24,379 nt of DNA, taken from a virus. Position numbers and translations under genes: made by a program. Shown here piece by piece: positions 1,023-23,929 of the stretch. The notes below the pieces were generated by a model. That model made no database searches. It saw nothing but the letters and a program-made list of their open reading frames with translations, and had not been told where the DNA came from. Positions within the stretch are counted from its first letter, which is position 1. Each line of letters opens with the position of its first letter. The stretch lies in the IMG/VR virus record IMGVR_UViG_3300025450_000118, positions 1 to 24,379 of that record; one strand, 5' to 3'.

Positions 1023-3776
1023 TTATTCTCCTGTTGAAATTGTTGGTTCGGGTACTGTGCATTGACAATTTGGGTGAGCCGGTGGGTAGGCATCTCCGAT
1101 TGTGTGTTCGCCTTCTTGTGATAAACAAATATCACAGGCTCCTTCATACGTCACCCAAGTCCAGGTAGTTATACCTGCGGCTTGGTATGAGTCAATGACG
1201 GATGCGTTGTACGCTCGGTTTGTTTCGGTAACAGCAATCATGTCTGCGCGAGCAGGGTCGTTGATAAGGCTGTTAATTGAAGCGCTTATTTCTGTTTGTG
1301 AAGCATTTGAAGCCATACCGTTAGTAATAGCATCAACAATTCTGCTTAATGTAGTTCCTTGAATTGCTTGCGCGTCAGCGTCAGCCTGATCAAGAATACT
1401 TTGCAGTTTTTGTCCTACTTGAATAGGGGGAAGATTTAAGGCATTAGCAGCAGTTGTTAATCCAAATGTTGCTGCTTCGGATTGCATTGCTCCAATAGTA
1501 TTAGCAAGTTCGCTAGATGAAATTGTTACGTTGTGTTGTATTGCTTGTTGAGCAATTATTCTAAGAGCGGAAATGTCAGCACCCATTTTAGGCATTGACT
1601 CAAGTGCTTGTTTAATAGCCTTGTCAACGCCAACAACGCCAGCTGCAAGTGCGGCTAAAATTAAATTACGATACTTATTTTCAATTTGTGACTTTCCCTG
1701 TTTTCCGGGAAGGTCATTTACTGAGCCTCTTTTAGTAAGTGAACCTTTTGGGGTATCAGTTATCTCACTGTTCACGATGTTAGAAGCCCATTCGTAGATG
1801 TTCTCAGGCATTGGTGTAGCGCCCTTGACAATGAAGTACGCCTGTTCGTTAAGGTTGTCAGCGAGTTCTGCGTTGAATGTGGTGAAGTCAAATGCTCGCC
1901 AGTTGCCGCGCTTGTGGCGTGATTTGACGAAGCGACCAAAGTCTTTTAACTCTTCGGTCATTGCTGACTTCTGATCCGCAGGTGCGCCAACAGCAGGGAT
2001 GTCTTTCCCTACACCACCCTTTGGCGCTTGGCTTTCACCGACACCTTCTTGTGATGTATTTTGATTGACTTTGCCTTGTGCTTCTTGGCCTTGTGAATTT
2101 TCTTGGTCACTTGGTTGTCCTGTCTGTCCTATTGTTTCACCAGCAGCGTTAACATTTAACATTCCTCTAAGGAAAAGAACTGTATTTCCGGCAACGATGA
2201 ATGGTTCATCGGCTTCTGGCATATCGTAAAGGTTTTGTCCAAGTTCGCCCTGTACGTCGTTAAGAGTTTTCTGACCTGAGAAAAGTGAAGTCTGTAGCGC
2301 TTGTGCGCGGTTGCGCTCGTCAAGAGAAGATTTAATGTCGTTAAGTACAAATGTTACGTTTTTGCTTGCTCCGAGGTAACGACGTGAAAGAGAGTTAATG
2401 CAAGAAATAATGTAATCAGCCATTGGCTTTGTTGAAACAGTTTCAACGTTTTCTTGCTCACCTTCAAGTTGACCCTTACCACCACCGAGTCCGGCGCGAG
2501 CCACGACTCCAAGAGCTGATGGAGATACACCGAAGATAGATGCAATGCGCTTGATGATGTATTCGTCGTAGTCTGACTTGAATCGGTCAGCCATCTCTGG
2601 CATTGCAACAGGGTCGAAACCTTCAGGCAGAACCTTGATGCGGTGACGCTCTGCGGTGTTGCCTGTTAAACGTCCGTTGAGAATACGCTCAAACTCTGCT
2701 AGTTTGTGAATGTCCAACTCCTGAGAGTTAGTTTTCATAAACGTCATTGGCATTGAGCCGTTTTGGTATTCAGAGTTCATCCACACTTGACGGTTCAGGT
2801 ACAGAGAAGCGGCTGGGATTGCCTCTTCTACCGGACTGTAACCGTATGGACTCCATGTGCGACGGTTCTTAACAAAGACTGATAGTTGGTCGGTAAGGAA
2901 CTCTTTGTCTCGACCTGTTCCTGCGTAGAACTCGCCGTCTGCATCTGGTGAAGCAATGAATTCGCCGCGCGGAAAACCCCATAAGACTTGTTGGTAGGCA
3001 GGTTGTGGTGGGTGAGGAATGTCGCCTCGGTTGTCAAGAAGAATTTTAATAGTCGGTGCGTCAATAACGTCAAAACCTAAAACATTGCCCTTGAAGTTGT
3101 AACGAGGGTAGACACACCATTGGTCGTAAGTAAAAATTTGCCAGAGTGACTCGGTAATCCATTCAGAAAACGTGCGGTCAGAAGCAACGTAAGGGTTTTC
3201 CCAGAATTCGTTAAGTCGGTTAATTTCATCGCCGTACTTCTCACGACCAATTAACGCAGCTTTGGCGTGTGAGCAATTCTCTTCTTCCATAATGTCTGAG
3301 ATTGCTTGATCTGAAAGAGTCCACGATGGCTGTTGTTTAACAATGTCACCAACGCGAATTTCAATGGCGCGGTGAATAATGTCACACTGCTCAGCAAGTG
3401 AGTTAAGAACTTGAAACGGAACCTCGGTCTGCGTGAGGTTGAGGTTGATTGCAGTCTGGTATTCGTACTTACGAGGTAGAGCGCGACCTGAGTCGTCAAG
3501 TACAACGTCGATTGGTGCAGGAAGTAGTGGTGCAGCTGGGCCGAGCATGGCTCCGAAACCACCGCCACCTTCTACGAACCCAGGGCGAGGCATTGGAACT
3601 GCTTGTCCGACTGTCGTTACAATACCCTGACCTGCGGTTGACATTTCGTTAGCAGCGTAGGCAGAGTTGTATCCGCCAGCATTTCCCAGTGGGGAATTAG
3701 CCATCCCTGCTTTTTGTAATTCAGCAACAATTTCCGCTGCGAGCGTAGTCTTGTTCTTTCGCTTGAATAGAGCCAC
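1023..3776 (-). CDS. Portal protein fused to MuF-like head protein
   Basis: Residues 1 to about 560 are a phage portal (dodecameric DNA gateway at the capsid vertex): an upstream QTEVPFQVLNSLAEQCDIIHRAIEIRVG segment (given here as context) and SPYGYSPVEEAI are portal-like. A Gln/Gly/Asn-rich linker follows at about 570-640. The C-terminus holds a MuF-type domain: MIAVTETNRAYN and the closing cysteine/histidine pattern CDIC...HPNCQC. At 917 residues it is about twice a normal portal. The start is GTG at 3776, immediately after the terL stop with no spacer; a GAGG at the end of terL probably serves as ribosome site. MuF domains normally form separate minor head proteins, so the fusion is a single-chain version of two neighbours. 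Confidence 0.88.
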   Translation of the reverse strand: MALFKRKNKTTLAAEIVAELQKAGMANSPLGNAGGYNSAYAANEMSTAGQGIVTTVGQAVPMPRPGFVEGGGGFGAMLGPAAPLLPAPIDVVLDDSGRALPRKYEYQTAINLNLTQTEVPFQVLNSLAEQCDIIHRAIEIRVGDIVKQQPSWTLSDQAISDIMEEENCSHAKAALIGREKYGDEINRLNEFWENPYVASDRTFSEWITESLWQIFTYDQWCVYPRYNFKGNVLGFDVIDAPTIKILLDNRGDIPHPPQPAYQQVLWGFPRGEFIASPDADGEFYAGTGRDKEFLTDQLSVFVKNRRTWSPYGYSPVEEAIPAASLYLNRQVWMNSEYQNGSMPMTFMKTNSQELDIHKLAEFERILNGRLTGNTAERHRIKVLPEGFDPVAMPEMADRFKSDYDEYIIKRIASIFGVSPSALGVVARAGLGGGKGQLEGEQENVETVSTKPMADYIISCINSLSRRYLGASKNVTFVLNDIKSSLDERNRAQALQTSLFSGQKTLNDVQGELGQNLYDMPEADEPFIVAGNTVLFLRGMLNVNAAGETIGQTGQPSDQENSQGQEAQGKVNQNTSQEGVGESQAPKGGVGKDIPAVGAPADQKSAMTEELKDFGRFVKSRHKRGNWRAFDFTTFNAELADNLNEQAYFIVKGATPMPENIYEWASNIVNSEITDTPKGSLTKRGSVNDLPGKQGKSQIENKYRNLILAALAAGVVGVDKAIKQALESMPKMGADISALRIIAQQAIQHNVTISSSELANTIGAMQSEAATFGLTTAANALNLPPIQVGQKLQSILDQADADAQAIQGTTLSRIVDAITNGMASNASQTEISASINSLINDPARADMIAVTETNRAYNASVIDSYQAAGITTWTWVTYEGACDICLSQEGEHTIGDAYPPAHPNCQCTVPEPTISTGE

Positions 3777-5219
3777 TTATTGTCCTCGGTGAGATGGGTT
3801 GATGCCTGATGAGTATAACTGCGTTGTTGGTTCTCTCAATAGAACACCACAACCTCTGCAATTAAATGCTTCAACGGCGTTTGGATGTCCACACGCGCCA
3901 CACGACGGTGCGAGTTGTGCAAAAAATCTATCAGCCGAAGAACCGGTAGCGAGTTTCAACTCCGCTAAGGCGTGAACTAAAGCGTCAAGTCGGTCTGGTG
4001 AGTATCCACTATCAGGAAGCCAGCCGGTCATTTGGTCTTCTAATACTGCAAATTCTCCGACGTGCGATACGCGGCCTTGCTCATAGAGCGCAGCTATCGG
4101 TTCGGCGCGGAGTCTTTTACCTAGTTTCGCAACAATTCCTGAGTAAGGAATGGTCGGGTCAACTGATCTAAGCGTTAATTCGACCATGTCGCCACCTTGA
4201 TTCTTTTCGGCAACAATTCGGTCAGCGTTAAATTCGTTAAAGGCTTTTATGGCCCGGTTAGCCCACCCAGAAGGAGTATCACGGCAACTGCGGTCAGCAA
4301 GAACATACGCGCGTCCGTCTTCTCCTTTAGCAACGACGACTATTCCAGTCTCGTCAGCATTTTCACCTGATGTGGTGGCTGGGTCAACTGCAACTACAAT
4401 CCTGACCAACTCTGGGGCTTCTTTCACCCTTGTAGAGTCAATCATCTCCAATGTCCATAGGGCATCGGGGTTGTCAGTTAACAATTCACCGTAAAGTTCC
4501 TGTCGTCCGATACGAGTTCCCTCATAACGGTTTCGCAATTCAGCGAGCGCAGCCTCAGACAGGTTAGCTGCATTATCAAACGTACTACCTCTTGTGACGA
4601 CTACGGAACCGTCTGTGCGGTTTACAAACTCTTTAATAAGTTTCGTCGGGCGAGGTGTCGTCGTGATAACGACTTGTGGGTTTCCAATTCGAAGCGCCGG
4701 TGCTAAACCAGCAGTCCATGTTTCTTCATAGCGCCATGCAGCGAATTCGTCCAACCATGCGCCAGACAAGTTAAGTCCACGCGCTCGGTCTGGTTCATCT
4801 GCGGAAATCATGTGAATTTTAGAGCCGTTAGACAAAGTGACTTGTCCGTTGGTCTTGTTGTAGTGGCGAAGTTGTCCGGGTTGTAGCGATTTAATAATTC
4901 CCGAAGGGCCTTCTATGCAAGTACGGCGTACGTCGGTGAAGGTCGGCGCTACTACTGCCCATTCGGTGTTTTCTTGCAGTAGTGCTTGTTCGAGTAGCCA
5001 GCCAGAGCCGGTGAAGGTCTTTCCCCAGCCTCGTCCGCTAATCACTAGCCAAATACGCCAGTCGCCTTCGGGTGGGAGTTGTTCGGGTCGTGCGCTCTGG
5101 CGATACCTAGAGTTCGTGACCGCTTTCTTCGCTTGCTCCGCTTCCAGTTGTTGCTTCAATAGCTCTAACTGTTCCAGTTTCCTGAGTTCCGCTAAGCGTT
5201 GCTCCGCTATCGTCGCCAT
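3777..5219 (-). CDS. terL: Terminase large subunit with C-terminal zinc ribbon
   Basis: DNA-packaging motor and headful or site nuclease. An N-terminal charged coiled coil (residues 5-33) precedes the ATPase: Walker A GRGWGKT at 62-68, Walker B WLDEF at 155-159 and the coupling motif TTTPRP at 186-191. The nuclease domain begins with VVAVDPATT, whose D279 is the first metal ligand. Near the C-terminus C440, C443, C454 and C457 form a CxxC-N10-CxxC zinc ribbon, an extra not needed by the family. The proposed ATG at 5219 overlaps terS by 113 bp; the coiled coil in this frame argues that the overlap is real, but a later start cannot be excluded. Confidence 0.93.
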   Translation of the reverse strand: MATIAEQRLAELRKLEQLELLKQQLEAEQAKKAVTNSRYRQSARPEQLPPEGDWRIWLVISGRGWGKTFTGSGWLLEQALLQENTEWAVVAPTFTDVRRTCIEGPSGIIKSLQPGQLRHYNKTNGQVTLSNGSKIHMISADEPDRARGLNLSGAWLDEFAAWRYEETWTAGLAPALRIGNPQVVITTTPRPTKLIKEFVNRTDGSVVVTRGSTFDNAANLSEAALAELRNRYEGTRIGRQELYGELLTDNPDALWTLEMIDSTRVKEAPELVRIVVAVDPATTSGENADETGIVVVAKGEDGRAYVLADRSCRDTPSGWANRAIKAFNEFNADRIVAEKNQGGDMVELTLRSVDPTIPYSGIVAKLGKRLRAEPIAALYEQGRVSHVGEFAVLEDQMTGWLPDSGYSPDRLDALVHALAELKLATGSSADRFFAQLAPSCGACGHPNAVEAFNCRGCGVLLREPTTQLYSSGINPSHRGQ

Positions 5220-5646
5220 CTTCTACCCCTAGTTGATTTTGTAGGCGAATAATCTCGCTTTGTATGTAGTCAAGTGTGATTACTTCGTGTCGGATTGGTG
5301 CGTCTAGTCCGAGTAGTTTTGTGCGTCGGTCTTGGATCGCCAGCACTCGGTCAATAGCGAATAGCGCTCCGCCTTTTGCGTCGGGGTCTAGTGCTTTTTT
5401 CATGGCGACTTCTAGGAGTGCGTCTAGGCGCTCATTCTCTAATCTTCGGTATTCATCTACCGCCTCGGCTGGAATTGCTGCAAGGGCGTTCTGCACTCGG
5501 TAGTAGGCGTGAGACTTGGAGATTCCTAGCGCCTCTGCGATTCGGCTATACGTCATGCCGCTAGATCTAAGGCGTAGCGCCTCGGTATCTTTCATAGCTG
5601 ATTCAGCAGTTTTAACGAAACCGCCGCGAGAATTTACACTAGGCAT
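5107..5646 (-). CDS. terS: Terminase small subunit
   Basis: DNA-recognition subunit of the packaging motor. Residues about 20-55 form a helix-turn-helix (MTYSRIAEALGISKSHAYYR) typical of TerS and of resolvase-like HTH proteins. A helical middle (ENERLDALLEVAMKKALD, residues about 69-86) fits the oligomerisation region, and the C-terminal 45 residues are a low-complexity Gly/Ser/Thr/Glu tail that would contact TerL. AAGGGA lies 5 nt before the ATG. It sits directly upstream of terL, as usual. The tail is encoded by the same DNA as the terL N-terminus (113-bp overlap). The call depends mainly on the HTH and on position. Confidence 0.8.
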   Translation of the reverse strand: MPSVNSRGGFVKTAESAMKDTEALRLRSSGMTYSRIAEALGISKSHAYYRVQNALAAIPAEAVDEYRRLENERLDALLEVAMKKALDPDAKGGALFAIDRVLAIQDRRTKLLGLDAPIRHEVITLDYIQSEIIRLQNQLGVEDGDDSGATLSGTQETGTVRAIEATTGSGASEESGHEL

Positions 5647-5739: not shown

Positions 5740-6249
5740 TTACAAGGTTAGAATGGTGAATGGGCTACGGACGCTAGTAATATGCTCTTCAGCGGCCTCT
5801 AGGGCGCGTATTAGGCTACTCTCATCCGGTCTCTCACTTGTCGCAACGTATAAAGCGCCTAGAGCTACCGCCGCGCCACTACCTATCGCGCCATAGGATA
5901 CGCCATCCGCATTAGGTCTAGCCGCTATCGCTCCTCTATCCGAGTTGATTTCATAGATCACGCCGCGCTCTATTGCAAGTAGAGACCAGTCGTCTTTAAG
6001 AGCGTCCTCTAGTTTCACTACGTCTAGTAACTGATTCAAGCTAGGGGAATAGGCGCTACTAGCGGCCTTGTGCCATAAGTACCCGGCGCGCCACGATCCG
6101 GCGAAACCTAGCAGCAGGTCACCATAGCGGCCTATCTTAGGCGTAGAGCTACGAGACGCCAGCCCGGTATCGTCACTACTTAAACAGTCGCTACCGATCC
6201 ACGCGCCGCCATCCTTACCCGGTACGATTAGGCCGGCTACTACCGTCAT
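5740..6249 (-). CDS. Proteasome/HslV-like Ntn-hydrolase
   Basis: 169 residues, close to HslV (about 175) and shorter than actinobacterial proteasome beta subunits. It starts MTVVAGLI, so removal of Met would expose the catalytic Thr1. The expected partners are placed as in the family: Asp20 in WIGSD (D17 in HslV, with three extra residues before it), Lys37 in STPKIG (K33), and the GSG of YGAIGSGAAVALGAL. PKIGRYGDLLLGFAGSW matches the strand pair after the lysine. No propeptide is present, which resembles HslV rather than PrcB. The product may be a self-compartmentalising protease or an amidohydrolase of the same fold. It stands between the clamp operon and terS. No alpha subunit or ATPase partner is in the window. 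The ribosome site is weak. Confidence 0.75.
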   Translation of the reverse strand: MTVVAGLIVPGKDGGAWIGSDCLSSDDTGLASRSSTPKIGRYGDLLLGFAGSWRAGYLWHKAASSAYSPSLNQLLDVVKLEDALKDDWSLLAIERGVIYEINSDRGAIAARPNADGVSYGAIGSGAAVALGALYVATSERPDESSLIRALEAAEEHITSVRSPFTILTL

Positions 6250-6320: not shown

Positions 6321-6551
6321 TCATTCGCTCCCGTCATCCTTAAGCCTACGCCGCCACCGGTAGCCATTCTTTAGGTATAAAGGGACGTAGGCCAGCGCTG
6401 CAAGGGTAAAACCGTACTGGCCAGTATTCAGGCCATAGATAGACCAGGCCACGCTATTAGCCGCCAGTAGTAGCCATGCTAGCCAATAACGCCGCCCGGC
6501 TAGATACGCTCCCACCATCCCTACAAGCTCCAAGACGAATGACCAGATCAC
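6321..6551 (-). CDS. Small three-helix membrane protein, PnuC-like half
   Basis: 76 residues with three hydrophobic segments (about 3-20, 22-38 and 46-61) and a basic tail (NGYRWRRRLKDD). The pattern of Trp, Tyr, Asn and GQYGF recalls one half of the PnuC vitamin-transporter fold; small proteins of this kind are common in actinobacterial phages, where they are often left as membrane proteins or suspected holins. The start is GTG at 6551; the first internal ATG would remove the first helix, so GTG is preferred. Its role is not known. Confidence 0.65.
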   Translation of the reverse strand: MIWSFVLELVGMVGAYLAGRRYWLAWLLLAANSVAWSIYGLNTGQYGFTLAALAYVPLYLKNGYRWRRRLKDDGSE

Positions 6552-7086
6552 CTAACAAGCCTAGACCATGAGACCGGGAGCGCTGCCACTAGGAGCGCTT
6601 TAGGTGATAACTAAGGCGCGACACTACTAAAGGCCAATAAATACGATCGAAGACTAAAAGCCGCCACCTTACGCGCCACCTTATGGCAATAGAGACCGGC
6701 AGAACTAAGGCCGCTCCAATAGGCCACCGGGAGCAATAAGACCGCTCCAATAGAAGACCGGGAGCGCTGCCACCAGTCGAAGACCGGCAGAATAGGCCAC
6801 CGGCAGAATAGACCGATTCAATAAAGCTACTAAGACTAGACCGGGATAAGACCTAGAGACCATAGGACGCGATTAGAGGCCATGAGACGCGACAAGGCTA
6901 AACAAGGTAAGACCGGGCTAAACAAGGCTAAGACGGGCGATCTAGGAGCATTAGGTAAGAGCTGGCGTTCTAACGCTTAGACGGATGACGACCCTAAGAA
7001 TTAGACCATCCATCCAATTAGTCCACTAAAGACGAATAGCCTACCCGGTTAAGGGTAGACCATCCATCCTAGTTAGGTTAGTTCAG
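6552..7086. repeat. Gene-free 535-bp stretch of degenerate short direct repeats
   Basis: All six frames are full of stops. The DNA consists of loosely repeated purine-rich words built on GACCGG, GGCC and CAATAG. Exact repeats include AGACCGGGAGCGCTGCCAC at 6571-6589 and 6755-6773, CCGCTCCAATAG at 6711 and 6742, ACCGGCAGAATAG at 6783 and 6799 (16-bp step), GGCTAAACAAGG at 6896 and 6916 (20-bp step), and TAGACCATCCATCC near 7002 and 7066. The layout suggests an old, diverged tandem array with a step of about 15-20 bp. No tRNA, CRISPR unit or clear terminator is seen. A function as a protein-binding array or RNA is open. Confidence 0.7.
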
Positions 7087-7890: not shown

Positions 7891-8212
7891 TCTCCACCTC
7901 GTAACATTCTGCCAATTCGCTAAGGTAAGCGGCTACTTCCGGCGCGTATGAAGTAGTTTCATAAGTGTCATCCCACCAGTTCACCTTAATAGTTAGGTAA
8001 TCGCTACCAATTCGGCTAATTACCCTAGTAGATGGGCCGCCATAACTGACTAACAATTCTACGCCGCTAGGATCAGGATTATCTTGATTCCCTAATGACT
8101 GACGGAATAGTACTACTACCTCTAAACATTCGCTAACGTAGTTATCTATCGCGTCACCGGTTAGGTCTTCTAATTCGCGCGCTAGGTCTTCTGCTATCGC
8201 CTTAGATTCCAT
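7883..8212 (-). CDS. Hypothetical acidic protein, 109 aa
   Basis: Begins MESKAIAEDLARELEDLTG; the middle has strand-like segments (GVELLVSYGG, YLTIKVNWWDDTYE) and the end is a helix. It is strongly acidic. Its ATG shares one base with the dnaN-like stop (TAATG), so the two are probably co-translated and could be functionally linked, but I recognise no domain. Confidence 0.65.
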   Translation of the reverse strand: MESKAIAEDLARELEDLTGDAIDNYVSECLEVVVLFRQSLGNQDNPDPSGVELLVSYGGPSTRVISRIGSDYLTIKVNWWDDTYETTSYAPEVAAYLSELAECYEVENV

Positions 8213-8871
8213 TAGGCCACCGTCCTTACTGGCATAAGAACTACGCGGGTAAGGCCGCTAGCGTCTTCAAATAACGCCGGCTTGTTAGCGTCAGTAATTG
8301 AAACTATGCGAATAGCTCCAATACCTGATCCGGTTTCCTTGTTATTAAATGGAGCAATCTTAGCAATATCCGCTAGGAATACCGGGTCAAAGGCAATTAG
8401 GCTAGTTTCGCTAATTCCCTTAGCCGGTATCAATTGCTCCACGCTTGGATACTGACCCGATACTAGGCGAATGTTACTAACTGTCATATCCTGGCAAGTG
8501 ATAGTCACTAGATCGTCTTCGATTCGTAGCTCCACTTGGATAGAAGACTTATAGCCGCTAGCCTTGTAATTCTTAATAGCGCTCCTAAACTGTTTAGCGG
8601 CGTTAAGTAGTGATTCTGCCGGTATCAGTAAGTCGCTGCCGCTAAGAATTCCGTCCACGTCTACGAAACAAGACCGCTCCACAATGGCGAGACGGTAGCT
8701 ATCGGTAGCGGTGGCCTTAATCGTGGCATTCAGACCGTTAGCGTCTTCCACCTTGTCTAGGATGTTTAACTTAATAGCCGCTAGTAGTGGCCTATTGTCT
8801 TTAGCCTTAGTAGCGTAATTGCCTACCGTCACTAGATCTACGTAATTTTCGAGGGTTAGTGTAATCAACAT
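8212..8871 (-). CDS. DnaN-like sliding clamp, short form
   Basis: DNA polymerase processivity clamp related to the bacterial beta subunit. RPLLAAIKLNI with ATDSYRLAI (residues 55-63), then GQYPSVEQLIP, match domain 2 of beta; the C-terminal VVLMPVR matches the end of domain 3. At 219 residues it is far shorter than beta (about 370): I see domain 2 complete and only about half of domain 3, with no domain 1. I chose the ATG at 8871 rather than an upstream one because it forms a TAATG overlap with the previous gene and has AGGTG 8 nt before it. It would presumably load on DNA for host DNA polymerase III, since no phage polymerase is visible here. It lies next to DnaA boxes. Confidence 0.85.
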   Translation of the reverse strand: MLITLTLENYVDLVTVGNYATKAKDNRPLLAAIKLNILDKVEDANGLNATIKATATDSYRLAIVERSCFVDVDGILSGSDLLIPAESLLNAAKQFRSAIKNYKASGYKSSIQVELRIEDDLVTITCQDMTVSNIRLVSGQYPSVEQLIPAKGISETSLIAFDPVFLADIAKIAPFNNKETGSGIGAIRIVSITDANKPALFEDASGLTRVVLMPVRTVA

Positions 8872-9068
8872 TATGGCAACACCTCGCCACAATTGAAGCA
8901 ATCGCCATCGTTGCCAGAACTAATTAGTTCATTCACGCGATCGCCTAGCGCTACCGCTTCCACCGCTGTTAGGCGCTCATTAAAACAAGCTAGGCAATAA
9001 AGAATAGTCGAGGTATAGGTAGGATCCCATATCGCCATTCCGGTTACTTTTTTTAGTGTTTCATTCAT
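8871..9068 (-). CDS. Zinc-ribbon small protein, 65 aa
   Basis: First gene of the clamp operon. Two cysteine pairs, CLAC (near residue 25) and CFNC (near residue 58), with a helical middle (ERLTAVEAVALGDRVNELI). The stop shares a base with the dnaN-like start. It follows the promoter at about 9124-9153. Likely a small metal-binding accessory protein; role unknown. Confidence 0.7.
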   Translation of the reverse strand: MNETLKKVTGMAIWDPTYTSTILYCLACFNERLTAVEAVALGDRVNELISSGNDGDCFNCGEVLP

Positions 9069-12255: not shown

Positions 12256-12717
12256 CCAATCCCATAATTACTATTGCTGAAGCAAACGGAGCTGATTGTT
12301 TACCGCCGCCAAATTTCAAACGCCCTTTAATAAACCTTATTTCGTGATGCATACAATGATCCCACCACCAAGCCGTGTCGGTTCGAGATGGTAAAAGACA
12401 AACCACTAAGCCCCCCCCCGCGATTCCATGTCTGCTTTTGCCATCCAAATTTTCATGTCTCTGCCATATGGAGGGTTAAGAAAAATTGCTTTTCCTCCAG
12501 AATCTTCAACCCAATTACGAGTTAAAGCGTTGCGCCTAGATTCGTCAGGGTGATTAGGCCCATACCAATTTTTGCATAATGCAGAATTAGACAATGCTGC
12601 GGCGTCAAGATTAAAATTAAATTCGGCGTTTAATTGATTAAAAAGATTTTTTGGAGTTGTCCATTTATCGTTTTCAGAAGTTAATGCCGCGCCATCTGCA
12701 ACAAAGAAATTACCCAC
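12230..12717 (-). pseudogene. Phage DNA N-6-adenine methyltransferase, frameshifted at a G9 tract
   Basis: The two frames together make a full phage Dam-type enzyme of about 160 residues. Frame one (12406-12717) has KWTTPKNLFNQL, FNLDAAA and motif IV NPPYGRD (81-87). It stops just after a run of nine G (12411-12419). Reading one base back restores LVVCLLPSRTDTAWW, EIRFIKGRLKF and APFASAIV, the normal end of the family, up to 12230. One more G would make a single open frame. Causes to weigh: sequencing error in a homopolymer, a true loss mutation, slipped-strand phase variation, or -1 slippage by the ribosome. The start is GTG at 12717, overlapping the upstream gene by 8 bp. Confidence 0.85.
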
Positions 12718-13084
12718 CTGCGGATCTATACCCTGCTGCCAATGATCGCCATGCGTCCAGTCGAGACTGTGCAGCTCTGAGAGCCTCGCGAGTAGTTGTC
12801 AGTTTATTTTCGGCAATTAGAAAGGCAAGGTGTTCTTTCTCCAATTCGCTGTCAACTTCCATCTCGATGTCAGGTATGGACTTCTTGGTTACTGCGTTAG
12901 CCACGACCATAAGACGCTTCTGAGCGTAAAGAGCCTTGTATGTAGCCTCTGTTATTGCAGCTTTTTGCCCTGCTTCGTTCATCTCATCTACAAGATTTTC
13001 AATAATTTCAATCTCGGTCAAGATTCCCTTTTGGCACATAGCCGGTAGGTGTTCGTGAGCCGCATTGTTATACCATTTCGTCAA
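12710..13084 (-). CDS. Hypothetical coiled-coil protein, 124 aa
   Basis: Almost wholly helical: ILTEIEIIENLVDEMNEAG, YKALYAQKRLMVVANAV and a heptad-like C-terminal half from about residue 75. The first codon available is TTG at 13084, inside the end of the cytosine methyltransferase; the first in-frame ATG is 15 codons later with no ribosome site, so the start is uncertain. It sits between the two methyltransferase genes. No family recognised. Confidence 0.6.
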   Translation of the reverse strand: MTKWYNNAAHEHLPAMCQKGILTEIEIIENLVDEMNEAGQKAAITEATYKALYAQKRLMVVANAVTKKSIPDIEMEVDSELEKEHLAFLIAENKLTTTREALRAAQSRLDAWRSLAAGYRSAGG

Positions 13085-13589
13085 AATGCACCAGCCTTTC
13101 CATAATCCACTCTACGACAGGTACTGCCACTGCATTGCCTATTTGTCTGTAACGGACTGAATCTGACTGTCCGTCTGTCCACCCATCAGGGAAACCCTGT
13201 AAGCGCTCACATTCAGTAGGAGTTAGTCTTCTGACTTTTGCCGGTGAAGCGATTGCATGACGGTCGGTGGTGTTAAGAGTAAACATAACTCCATCATCTT
13301 CACCATGACCATTTCCTTGCGGCCCATTTTTATCTGTTCTGCCAATTTGACTGCCTTGAATTGGAAATACATACGGCACTCTTGCCCCTCCTGTTCCCCA
13401 ATACGTTGCCACCGTTGGAGAATTATCTTCATAAATTCGCACGTCATTTACCCTGGTCGCCTCAAAAATTAAAACAGTTGCTCTTACGTCTCCACCATCA
13501 AATTGATTTAACGTAGGCACAAGACCACCTTCAACCCAGGTTTCGTAATCTGTTTCACTCTGCGCTCTCCGACTCTTCACCCACCACAT
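13068..13589 (-). CDS. C5-cytosine methyltransferase, C-terminal part
   Basis: Target-recognition region plus motifs IX and X of a Dcm enzyme: FEATRVNDVRIYEDNSPTV and GTGGARVPYVF are typical of phage Dcm recognition domains; RRLTPTECERLQGFPD is motif IX and QIGNAVAVPVVEW motif X. It lacks motifs I to VIII, which are in the preceding frame; the two parts add up to 383 residues, a normal Dcm length. Its ATG overlaps the stop of the first part (TAATG). Either the gene is split into two coupled chains that reassemble, or a frameshift has broken one gene. Confidence 0.82.
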   Translation of the reverse strand: MWWVKSRRAQSETDYETWVEGGLVPTLNQFDGGDVRATVLIFEATRVNDVRIYEDNSPTVATYWGTGGARVPYVFPIQGSQIGRTDKNGPQGNGHGEDDGVMFTLNTTDRHAIASPAKVRRLTPTECERLQGFPDGWTDGQSDSVRYRQIGNAVAVPVVEWIMERLVHFDEMV

Positions 13590-14043
13590 TACGCAACGCT
13601 TCCTCTAGCTGCGGTGGCAGATTCTTCCCTCGTCCGCTTGACCTTCTTAATATCCCCTGACAGGCTTTCTGAGAAAGCAAGTATTTCTCCGGCACGTTTT
13701 CCATCATCAAGACATCCGACAATGAAGACTCGACGACGACGTTGGGGTACTCCGAAATATTGAGCATCAAGCACACGCCAGCTGACACCATACCCCCTGA
13801 CTGAAAGCGCCCCGATAACGGTTCCCATATCTCTTCCTCCGTTAGATGACAAAAGACCGGGTACGTTTTCGAGGACAAGGTAGGCAGGTGAAAGTTCGTC
13901 CACAAGTCTAATAATTTCCCAATATAAACCGGAGCGTTTTCCGGCAAGACCGGCACGTTTGCCAGCCACCGAGAGGTCTTGGCAGGGGAAACCACCGGTA
14001 ATAATTCCTCGCTCGGGAATAAAGCCTGCTGCTTTAAGTTCAT
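13555..14043 (-). CDS. Overlapping frame inside dcm, resembling a known small phage protein
   Basis: This 162-residue frame lies on the same strand and same DNA as the dcm catalytic part. From about residue 75 it reads SGRFQSGGMVSAGVCLMLN, then SSLSDVLMMENVPEKYLLS, KACQGILRR and LPPQLEEALRNVV. From memory, stand-alone phage proteins share this order of motifs (SLSDVLE, KYFLS, ACAGILRRAEKRGK.LP). The first 70 residues look unconstrained, so the true start may be later or the segment may be joined by frameshift. It ends 35 bp inside the dcm C-terminal part. It could be an overprinted gene or a by-product of dcm codon choice. Confidence 0.4.
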   Translation of the reverse strand: MNLKQQALFPSEELLPVVSPAKTSRWLANVPVLPENAPVYIGKLLDLWTNFHLPTLSSKTYPVFCHLTEEEIWEPLSGRFQSGGMVSAGVCLMLNISEYPNVVVESSLSDVLMMENVPEKYLLSQKACQGILRRSSGRGKNLPPQLEEALRNVVGEESESAE

Positions 14044-14221
14044 CGCCTGTCACCTTTGTAACGTCTGTAAAGTGCGTTGCGTCAGGGAACCGACGTTCTA
14101 AAACTCCCCTAGCGTTTTTATCTATTTCTACTGTTGCTACTGTTTTAATTCCACTACGTTGCATGGCAAGGTCAAAACCTCCTACACCAGCAAACAAACT
14201 AACTGCCGTTAAGTCCGTCAT
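13589..14221 (-). CDS. C5-cytosine methyltransferase, N-terminal catalytic part
   Basis: Carries motif I FAGVGGFDLA (10-19), motif IV GGFPCQDLS with the catalytic C80, motif VI ENVPG (118-122) and motif VIII QRRRRVFIVG (160-169), all intact. Ends at a TAA that overlaps the ATG of the C-terminal part. It would methylate cytosine in phage DNA, perhaps to escape host restriction. AAGGGG precedes the ATG. A second, differently framed sequence with family-like features is encoded within its last 450 bp (see 13555-14043). Confidence 0.88.
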   Translation of the reverse strand: MTDLTAVSLFAGVGGFDLAMQRSGIKTVATVEIDKNARGVLERRFPDATHFTDVTKVTGDELKAAGFIPERGIITGGFPCQDLSVAGKRAGLAGKRSGLYWEIIRLVDELSPAYLVLENVPGLLSSNGGRDMGTVIGALSVRGYGVSWRVLDAQYFGVPQRRRRVFIVGCLDDGKRAGEILAFSESLSGDIKKVKRTREESATAARGSVA

Positions 14222-14230
14222 TCATTCCCC

Positions 14231-14650
14231 TTACCATCCTCGTTCGCAGCCGTTTTGGTGCGGTACATAACCGGCGTATCCGTTTAGTGCTTGAATCTTT
14301 ATTGCTATTGACACTTGCTCGGCTGGTGTAGCTGCGTACTCCGCACCGTAAATCCAACCGCCGTATGCCATCCAGTTTACTTCTGTGATACCTAAGCCAC
14401 CAGAATAGATTGGCCCTCGAACGTGCCAGTTGCCACCCTGTTCGCATTGCGCAACCTTCTGCCACTTAGCCATAATCGCTGGCGGTATGACTGGCTCTGG
14501 CGGTGCTTGCCTAGCCTTCACGACTTGTACAGTTGTCGGTACTGGCTTCTGTACATTTGCGTCGGCTGGTATAGCGCACACAACTGTCAAGGCTAAGGCG
14601 AGGGCAACGAGGTATCTCAAAGGTTTCCAATGTTCGGAGTTACCGCCCAT
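14231..14650 (-). CDS. Secreted Rpf/transglycosylase-like protein
   Basis: Likely exported muralytic enzyme. A signal peptide is clear: basic start, hydrophobic core (YLVALALALTVVCAI, 13-27) and a cut after ADA at about residue 31. A Pro-rich linker leads to the domain WQKVAQCEQGGNW, with E70 as the catalytic Glu, GGLGITEVNW, AYGG and ATPAEQVSIA. C69 and C135 match the disulfide of resuscitation-promoting factors. At about 80 residues the domain is complete. It is placed in the early block next to dcm, far from the holin and peptidase, so entry, superinfection or host resuscitation are as likely as lysis. It overlaps the upstream gene by 34 bp. Confidence 0.82.
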   Translation of the reverse strand: MGGNSEHWKPLRYLVALALALTVVCAIPADANVQKPVPTTVQVVKARQAPPEPVIPPAIMAKWQKVAQCEQGGNWHVRGPIYSGGLGITEVNWMAYGGWIYGAEYAATPAEQVSIAIKIQALNGYAGYVPHQNGCERGW

Positions 14651-16904: not shown

Positions 16905-17468
16905 CTATTTAATTTCTCCATTTGCCCTTCGTTCTCGCTTTCTGGCGTTTATTTTGTCTTTGTTTTCTAAGTAAAATTTCCGGGCGCGAGCCTTATCTTT
17001 TTCTTTGTATTCCGGGGTATTCCTGTATTCGTTGATACGTTGTTGTCTTTCAGGAGACACTTCTACGCTGTGTGAGTACTCGCTGTGCGCTTTGTAACAG
17101 GGTTCGCACTTGACTACTGGTTCGTTAGGAAACCTGGCTTGAATCCTTTTAAGGTTGATGTACCCAGCGTTCGATCCGCAACTTTTATGTTCGGGTGGAA
17201 GAACTTGTCTTTCCTCAAATTGCGTAAAATTTATACCAAGTTCTTTACGCATACGCATACGCTCGGTTTCGGTTTTGCCACCGTAAATACCGTATTGCTC
17301 ACGCCTCAGTCCGTAGTAAAGGCACTCTTCAATAACAGGACAACCCTTGCAGATGTTTAATGCCATAGATTCTGACTCTGCTTCTCTAGCTTCTGGGAAC
17401 CACCAAACAGCCGGTGAACCTTTGCACGCTGCGTCATCTCGCCAGTTGTAATCATTGTTTTTATTCAT
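16905..17468 (-). CDS. WhiB-family iron-sulfur regulator with long C-terminal extension
   Basis: Actinobacteria-specific regulator holding a 4Fe-4S cluster: C15 (DDAACKG), C40, C43 and C49 (CKGCPVIEEC) and the GIYGG turn at 60-64, followed by the basic ETERMRMRK that binds DNA. Cellular WhiB proteins are about 80-130 residues; this has 187. The extra part contains another cysteine set (KSCGSNAGY, KCEPC) and a highly charged helix (about 150-187) ending in RKRERRANGEIK. Phage WhiB proteins are known to alter host transcription. The gene is next to a strong terminator that isolates it from the SSB block, so it may have its own promoter; TATAAT lies one base before the ATG but no -35 is clear. 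Confidence 0.9.
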   Translation of the reverse strand: MNKNNDYNWRDDAACKGSPAVWWFPEAREAESESMALNICKGCPVIEECLYYGLRREQYGIYGGKTETERMRMRKELGINFTQFEERQVLPPEHKSCGSNAGYINLKRIQARFPNEPVVKCEPCYKAHSEYSHSVEVSPERQQRINEYRNTPEYKEKDKARARKFYLENKDKINARKRERRANGEIK

Positions 17469-22876: not shown

Positions 22877-23929
22877 TTAGTATGGGCTTTCTACGAGAAT
22901 CTTTACGTTGCCATGCAGACCGGCTGTTGTGAAGTCACCTTCAACACTTCCAGTTTTCCACTTTCCGCGAAGGCTTGCTGTGAGGAAGTCACCAGCCACT
23001 TCACCGGGAGCAGAATGGGTAAATACTTGACCGACACCGTTGGCTGAGAAGGTGGTGTAGATTGCCCCCTGTGCCGGCAGGAAGGCGTTTCCGACGGCTC
23101 TAAGTTGTGCGCTGGCAGATAGGTTGGCATTTCCAGGATGGACAATTACGCCAGTTGCCTGTGCCGAGAATGTAGAGGTCTGCGCACCAGTTCCAGGAAA
23201 GCTATTTACGCCTGTCGCCGAAGCAGAGTAGGTTCCAATTATTGAGCCGGTTCCAGTAAGTCGAGCTAATCCTGTGGCTGAACCGTTAAATGACCCTGAG
23301 AGGTTTCCGCTCGAAGGCAAAAAGGCTGATCCGTTAGCCGAAGCACTGAACGAGCCTGATACCGAAGCGATACCATACAGAGCTGCACTTCCAGTACCGC
23401 TTGCCGAAAAGGTAGAGGTCTGTGTGCCTCTTGCAGGAATGAACGTAGTCGCCGTTCCGCTTGCCGAGAATGAACTTGTAAGAGTTCCGAAAGCGGCTGG
23501 TACAACTAATCCAGTAGCACTAGCCGAGAATGTTCCGGCGAGTTGTCCGGTTCCAGGCTCAAAGGCAGAGCCGGTAGCCGAAGCATTGAAAGTCGAACTG
23601 AGTGCGCCCTGACTTGGCAGAAATGCTGAGCCAGTAGCAGAAGCCGAGAATGTTGAGTTGAGTGAGGCAGTGCCAGGAAGTTGTGCCGACCCTGTGGCGC
23701 TGGCTGAGAATGACGCTGTGAGAGCGCCGGTTGCGTACAAAGCAGCCGAGCCAGTACCGCTTGCGCTGAAACTAGTAGAAAGTGAACCAGTGCCACTTGT
23801 TACTACCGTTACGGTTCCAGTAGCACTTGCCGAGAAACTTTCCGACAATGCTCCTGTGCCGTTTGTTACTGTACTGCCAGCGTAACCCTGGGCAAGGTAA
23901 GCCTGTCCAATGTAGTTACCACCGAGCAT
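22877..23929 (-). CDS. Virion protein with about fourteen 20-residue repeats
   Basis: After MLGGNYIGQAYLAQGYAG the protein is a tandem array of 20-residue units, consensus about sAflPgtGaLsssFSASATG; the last copies (RAVG, ANGVG) decay, and the end is GEVAGDFLTASLRGKW and GDFTTAGLHGNV. Rigid periodicity with small residues suggests a beta-solenoid or fibrous tail or head decoration. The DNA has a matching 60-bp period, so copy number may change by recombination. No catalytic motif. Neighbours are tail-fibre genes. Confidence 0.75.
   Translation of the reverse strand: MLGGNYIGQAYLAQGYAGSTVTNGTGALSESFSASATGTVTVVTSGTGSLSTSFSASGTGSAALYATGALTASFSASATGSAQLPGTASLNSTFSASATGSAFLPSQGALSSTFNASATGSAFEPGTGQLAGTFSASATGLVVPAAFGTLTSSFSASGTATTFIPARGTQTSTFSASGTGSAALYGIASVSGSFSASANGSAFLPSSGNLSGSFNGSATGLARLTGTGSIIGTYSASATGVNSFPGTGAQTSTFSAQATGVIVHPGNANLSASAQLRAVGNAFLPAQGAIYTTFSANGVGQVFTHSAPGEVAGDFLTASLRGKWKTGSVEGDFTTAGLHGNVKILVESPY

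Follow-up and report, generated by a model that had tools for sequence, protein, structure and literature searches.

An AAH-like proteasome/HslV-type threonine hydrolase with a shortened helix H2 on an apparent actinophage contig

The stretch of DNA analysed here (24,379 nt, hereafter the window; IMG/VR record IMGVR_UViG_3300025450_000118) encodes a protein that is almost certainly a proteasome-like Ntn hydrolase and that, judged from its sequence relationships, appears to be a group I, AAH-like member of this superfamily from a freshwater actinophage. The gene occupies positions 5740–6249 on the minus strand, exactly where the first-pass annotation had placed a 169-residue protein, and consists of 169 codons plus a stop; the product starts with MTVVAGLIVPGKDGGAWIGSDCLSSDD (MTVVAG...) and has Thr immediately after Met. 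Fuchs, Alva and Lupas defined 22 new proteasome homologues in 2021, of which PPH (about 140 aa, without helix H2) and AAH were both found in phages, and they found no actinophage with AAH (PMC8665760). The AAH-like gene in the window appears, on sequence grounds, to fill this gap. The novelty implied by the first-pass annotation was nevertheless overstated, as the 2021 paper already described phage-borne members and several actinophages carry annotated ones; the kind is already known, and the window protein is a new, divergent member of it.

The fold assignment draws on profile searches and on structure prediction. The PHROG_1040 profile ('peptidase HslV family') matched residues 1–168 of the hydrolase, i.e., end to end, with an E-value of 2.4e-12. 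The same family also matches the CcrColossus, DSL-LC01, Pumpernickel and Hum25 proteins as well as control genomes, among them E. coli and archaea with proteasomes; it is a broad bin that takes in cellular HslV and archaeal proteasomes too, and says nothing on subfamily or function. A profile made without the window protein gave the hydrolase 72 bits (E 2e-18 for 1e6 sequences), whereas the best of 200 shuffled copies scored 7 bits. When a profile built from 14 phage homologues was compared with PDB, HslV (E to 2.7e-16), BPH (1.7e-13) and proteasome beta subunits were retrieved, with phage residue 2 aligned on the mature Thr1. Searches of Pfam, NCBIfam and PADLOC with the hydrolase gave nothing specific and no Pfam Proteasome match, and tblastn in phages gave only three marginal matches, which then served as bridges to the relatives. 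The AlphaFold2 model (pLDDT 90.8, pTM 0.88), calculated from a 63-sequence alignment of the window and viral-contig proteins, showed a four-layer Ntn fold with proteasome-type topology, as had been proposed from the letters alone. Its best Foldseek matches in PDB were BPH (E 1.5e-9, TM 0.75) and HslV, with proteasome beta subunits also at the top, while a viral library returned phage proteins, some of them named proteasome subunit beta or HslV.

The active-site residues are also conserved. Thr2 (codon 6244–6246), Asp21 (6187–6189) and Lys38 (6136–6138), all encoded on the minus strand, align with Thr1, Asp17 and Lys33 of E. coli HslV, and Thr2 is the predicted nucleophile that would become Thr1 after Met removal. 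An alignment of 82 proteins covered the window protein, E. coli HslV and 80 further non-redundant homologues; at residue 2, 81 of them have Thr and one has Ser, and both Asp21 and Lys38 are invariant (82/82 each). The predicted oxyanion-hole glycine, Gly48 (6106–6108, minus strand; HslV Gly45), is kept in at least 90% of the family alignment, so that the superfamily residues (N-terminal Thr/Ser, Asp17, Lys33 and oxyanion Gly) are all represented, as Thr2, Asp21, Lys38 and Gly48. Ser124 (5878–5880, minus strand) lies in a Gly-Ser-Gly motif equivalent to the GSG of HslV, with nearly invariant flanking glycines and Ser, Cys or Thr in the middle in 80 of the 82 proteins. The first-pass annotation had read Thr, Asp and Lys as in place and had named two outcomes that would speak against its reading, a fold other than Ntn and homologues without these residues; both were checked and neither came true.

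The start of the protein can be fixed from the DNA. The in-frame codons preceding the ATG read TGA AGC AAC TCT, and the open frame is 172 aa; a stop thus lies four codons 5' of the ATG with no start codon between. With an in-frame stop so near, this ATG is the only possible start, and a propeptide is ruled out. The gene is also present on five other IMG/VR contigs with 99–100% identity. Compared with three non-identical contigs, the window gene showed dS of 0.15–0.24 and dN of 0.005–0.008, and dN/dS was 0.03–0.07 over all pairs of the four variants. The gene is under strong purifying selection, and the ORF is a real, selected protein.

For the subfamily placement, the phage-contig protein L030 was informative, since its relatives lie on plasmids of Rhizobium, Sinorhizobium, Mesorhizobium, Streptomyces, Paraburkholderia and Bacillus. 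This distribution fits that of AAH, for which reason the clade is called AAH-like here, a label that rests on distribution and profile scores and not on the published AAH alignment. The window protein scored 72 bits with the AAH-like clade and 68 bits with four sister viral contigs, versus 25 bits with the T5-like and freshwater clades (24.6 for the freshwater clade of DSL-LC01) and 6.6 bits with the PPH-sized CcrColossus protein, which was chosen as the PPH example on grounds of its length. By profile score, it clusters with alpha-proteobacterial and actinobacterial proteins, as is expected of AAH. In the tree, it groups with the four sisters L077, L028, L029 and L072 (99/99), and its long end branch leaves the finer placement unsure. 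Two scans of genome contigs found no chromosomal relative at the threshold used, so the bacterial AAH-like genes were reached only via plasmids.

With AAH, the window protein shares the compact group I architecture, the MT start, the Asp and Lys in place and the occurrence in phages. It differs in its short H2, in insertions of 3 and 5 residues and in the lack of Cys3, and with 169 aa it is smaller than the members of the Rhizobium/Streptomyces/Bacillus-type AAH-like clade (about 175–195 aa). PPH is likewise phage-borne, starts with MT and has H2 missing or nearly so, but it is only about 140 aa long, the CcrColossus protein starting MTTIAYR; identity with PPH was rejected on the length of the window protein, the presence of a short H2 and the low score to the CcrColossus protein. 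HslV (ClpQ) has the same fold (E about 2.5e-9 to 2e-8) and equivalents of Thr1, Asp17, Lys33 and Gly45, yet shares only about 20% identity; H2 is shortened in the window protein, and no HslU partner gene came up in the 24-kb window or in complete phage relatives. BPH is the best PDB match at 22–23% identity; it has a long acidic pore loop, in contrast to the window protein, whose H1/H2 region is the shortest of its family. The HslV-like protein of DSL-LC01, a lake actinophage, and its freshwater clade have identical catalytic residues but form a separate group of mostly longer proteins (about 190–230 aa). An assignment as PrcB was also dropped, given the excluded propeptide, a Foldseek identity of 17–19% and the absence of a Pfam Proteasome match.

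Homologues are widespread among phages, and PHROGs already contains a phage HslV family. Among isolated phages, they occur in about 130 Salmonella and Escherichia phages (T5-like, some jumbo), in Vibrio, Aeromonas, Moorella and Ochrobactrum phages, and in the actinophages DSL-LC01, Pumpernickel, Hum25 and Pitbull, the first three of which carry annotated family members. The member is gene 81 in the Arthrobacter phage Hum25 and gene 135 in the Microbacterium phage Pumpernickel. A single scan that started from the clade of DSL-LC01 led to 244 confirmed viral contigs. The locus and its relatives show that proteasome homologues are common in freshwater phages, actinophages included. Several features were noted among these relatives. 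Three homologues (L064, around 3998; L066; L067) start with MMQTSTCIVG, which places the presumed Thr nucleophile five residues inside and suggests a short propeptide that would need cleavage. The annotation of the homologue in Moorella phage MTATph1 (L007 4001–4042) seems 14 codons short, omitting the stretch with the catalytic Thr. In two Vibrio phages, a peptide deformylase gene lies shortly before the HslV-like gene (L009 2283–2771 and L012 133–630); only after deformylation can Met be removed and the catalytic Thr be exposed. A WhiB-like gene appears to follow the HslV-like gene directly on L010 (8631–8870) and on L083, L118, L121, L106, L037 and L084. In the freshwater clade, WhiB was directly downstream of the hydrolase in 7 of 32 cases by a loose motif scan (up to about 115 nt) and in 3 of 32 by a strict one, and in DSL-LC01 this arrangement was confirmed by Pfam; the adjacency in this clade is a suggestion only.

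The most distinctive feature of the window protein is helix H2. AAH proteins have a full set of H1–H4; the window protein does have H2 (codons 71–77, 6019–6039, minus strand), but it spans only 7 residues in the model, compared with 22 in that of L030 (pLDDT 95.7), where two short strands follow. The stretch from G51 to G96 has a length of 45 residues, compared with 56 in the next shortest member and a median of 64 in the family, and no family member is shorter overall than the window protein. The shortening sits at the lowest model confidence (pLDDT 74–86). In HslV, the H1/H2 side faces the ATPase, and a reduced H2 would therefore fit an ATPase-free enzyme. H3 and H4, which form the main contact between beta rings (PMC8665760), are intact in the model.

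Neither the window nor 11 records with homologues, of which eight are complete phages, gave a match to an AAA_2 (HslU/ClpX-type) ATPase, in agreement with the initial remark that no regulatory partner is seen. As a 24-kb fragment, the window could miss an ATPase encoded elsewhere in the phage genome, and the hydrolase could also be served by a host ATPase (ARC/Mpa, ClpX/ClpC). Fuchs et al. identified no co-occurring AAA+ interactors, and according to the same paper BPH is not under the control of an unfoldase (PMC8665760). With H2, and with it part of the H1/H2 pair, almost gone and no phage ATPase found, the hydrolase is most likely unfoldase-free.

On balance, we lean towards an ATP-independent threonine peptidase that is active during infection. 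Methionine aminopeptidase is expected to remove Met from a Met-Thr start. The host enzyme would thus take off Met1 and expose Thr2 as the nucleophile, which would be backed by Lys38, Asp21, the Gly48 oxyanion hole and the Gly-Ser-Gly loop. Subunits would probably pair via H3/H4 into an HslV/BPH-like assembly, which may need no unfoldase and, during infection, act on proteins that are unfolded or flexible, or on a specific target. In this scheme, we infer the ATP independence, the oligomer, the Met removal and the substrates from the comparisons above. The literature consulted contained no paper on the function of phage HslV-like proteins, and Fuchs et al. reported no clue to the function of phage proteasome homologues (PMC8665760). 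Being small, with an intact catalytic set and no phage ATPase seen, the enzyme allows a direct test of what viral proteasome homologues cut.

The leading alternative, which we nevertheless consider unlikely, is a specific processing enzyme or a connectase-like transpeptidase/ligase that modifies one defined host or phage protein without bulk degradation. As connectase illustrates, a small homologue of the proteasome can be both monomeric and specific (PMC8665760), and the near loss of H2 and the failure to find an ATPase partner would suit such an enzyme. The model, however, has no connectase-type helical insertion between S3 and S4, and it keeps the helices that pair the rings. A bolder and rather doubtful idea is that the window protein is a minimal viral proteasome homologue which, with most of H2 and any ATPase lost, would form a new type of assembly or would serve, in the infection of freshwater actinobacteria, as a small specific N-terminal-threonine protease or ligase for a defined host or phage protein.

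It is quite unlikely that the hydrolase is instead the peptidase partner of a host AAA+ unfoldase, with an HslU-like use of ClpX/ClpC or ARC/Mpa that redirects host proteolysis. The eight complete phages with homologues, in which no phage ATPase was found, leave room for a host partner, and interaction with housekeeping genes was also raised by Fuchs et al. (PMC8665760). On the other hand, the H1/H2 side is reduced in the window protein, and homologues are found in phages whose hosts differ widely, which speaks against a single conserved host ATPase. The ATP-independent peptidase remains our preferred reading.

An actinobacterial host, as assumed in the first-pass annotation, is indicated by two genes of the window, a WhiB-family regulator (16905–17468, minus strand; PF02467, E 1e-15) and a protein with an Rpf-type transglycosylase-like domain (14231–14650, minus strand; PF06737, E 1.6e-12). 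WhiB, which serves as a standard marker of actinophages from fresh water (PMC6802176, PMC10202952), is also found on the sister contigs L077 and L028. Since this phylum often has a proteasome, and the fold is PrcB-like, interference with the host 20S proteasome by assembly poisoning or PrcB replacement was weighed as well; we regard it as very improbable. The sequence is nearer to HslV and BPH than to PrcB, and a decoy would not need an intact, conserved active site. Moreover, homologues are often carried by phages that infect Gammaproteobacteria (T5-like, Vibrio, Aeromonas), bacteria that are not known to have a 20S proteasome.

The named genes downstream, on the minus strand, follow the order hydrolase, small-terminase-like gene (5107–5646; an HTH protein directly before terL, named by homology and position), terminase large subunit (3777–5219), portal fused to a Mu F-like minor head domain (1023–3776) and head maturation (prohead) protease (2–1009; PHROG_80 at E 5e-13 and three more such families), the last of which runs off the contig end. 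A role in head assembly, raised by the place of the gene beside the packaging genes and directly before terS, terL and portal, is hardly credible and was dropped. A prohead protease of the phage's own, encoded after the portal gene, fills this role and makes a capsid function unlikely; the hydrolase matches no prohead protease family, and its homologues in other phages sit among metabolism genes (thymidylate synthase, MazG) and not head genes.

Upstream of the hydrolase and in the same orientation lies a gene for a 76-aa PnuC-like membrane protein (PHROG_2421; 6321–6551, minus strand); small membrane proteins are not enriched upstream of the hydrolase among 80 homologues (9/80 upstream versus 8/70 downstream). 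The hydrolase gene had been described as sitting between a replication operon and terS. It does lie immediately before terS, and genes for replication and recombination are found farther upstream, but it is separated from the sliding-clamp-like gene at 8212–8901 by some 2 kb that hold small ORFs and a non-coding stretch with repeats. This non-coding stretch (6555–7080), about 0.5 kb long, contains diverged direct repeats with units of 31 nt and 20 nt, a repeat pair of 22 nt at 6571 and 6755 that is 95% alike, and a strong jump in AT skew; lying just upstream of the hydrolase and the packaging genes, it is possibly an origin, a pac site or a regulatory region.

Some further observations concern other genes of the window. 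The prohead protease contains an apparent DnaJ-type CXXCXGXG zinc-finger stretch at residues 186–219 (PF00684, E 3e-4, under the curated cut-off), which looks unusual for a capsid protease. A 350-aa protein encoded at 22877–23929 (minus strand), with no PHROG match, consists of repeated Gly/Ser/Thr/Ala units (TGTGSLSTSFSASGTGSA-like). The minus-strand ORF at 12406–12717 encodes a fragment-like DNA methyltransferase of 103 aa with a partial match to PHROG_111 and may be a decayed or split gene. Finally, a C5-cytosine methyltransferase is distributed over two minus-strand ORFs with a 1-base overlap, the N-terminal motifs at 13589–14221 and the C-terminal part at 13068–13589, an arrangement that may reflect a frameshift, a programmed shift or a two-subunit enzyme.
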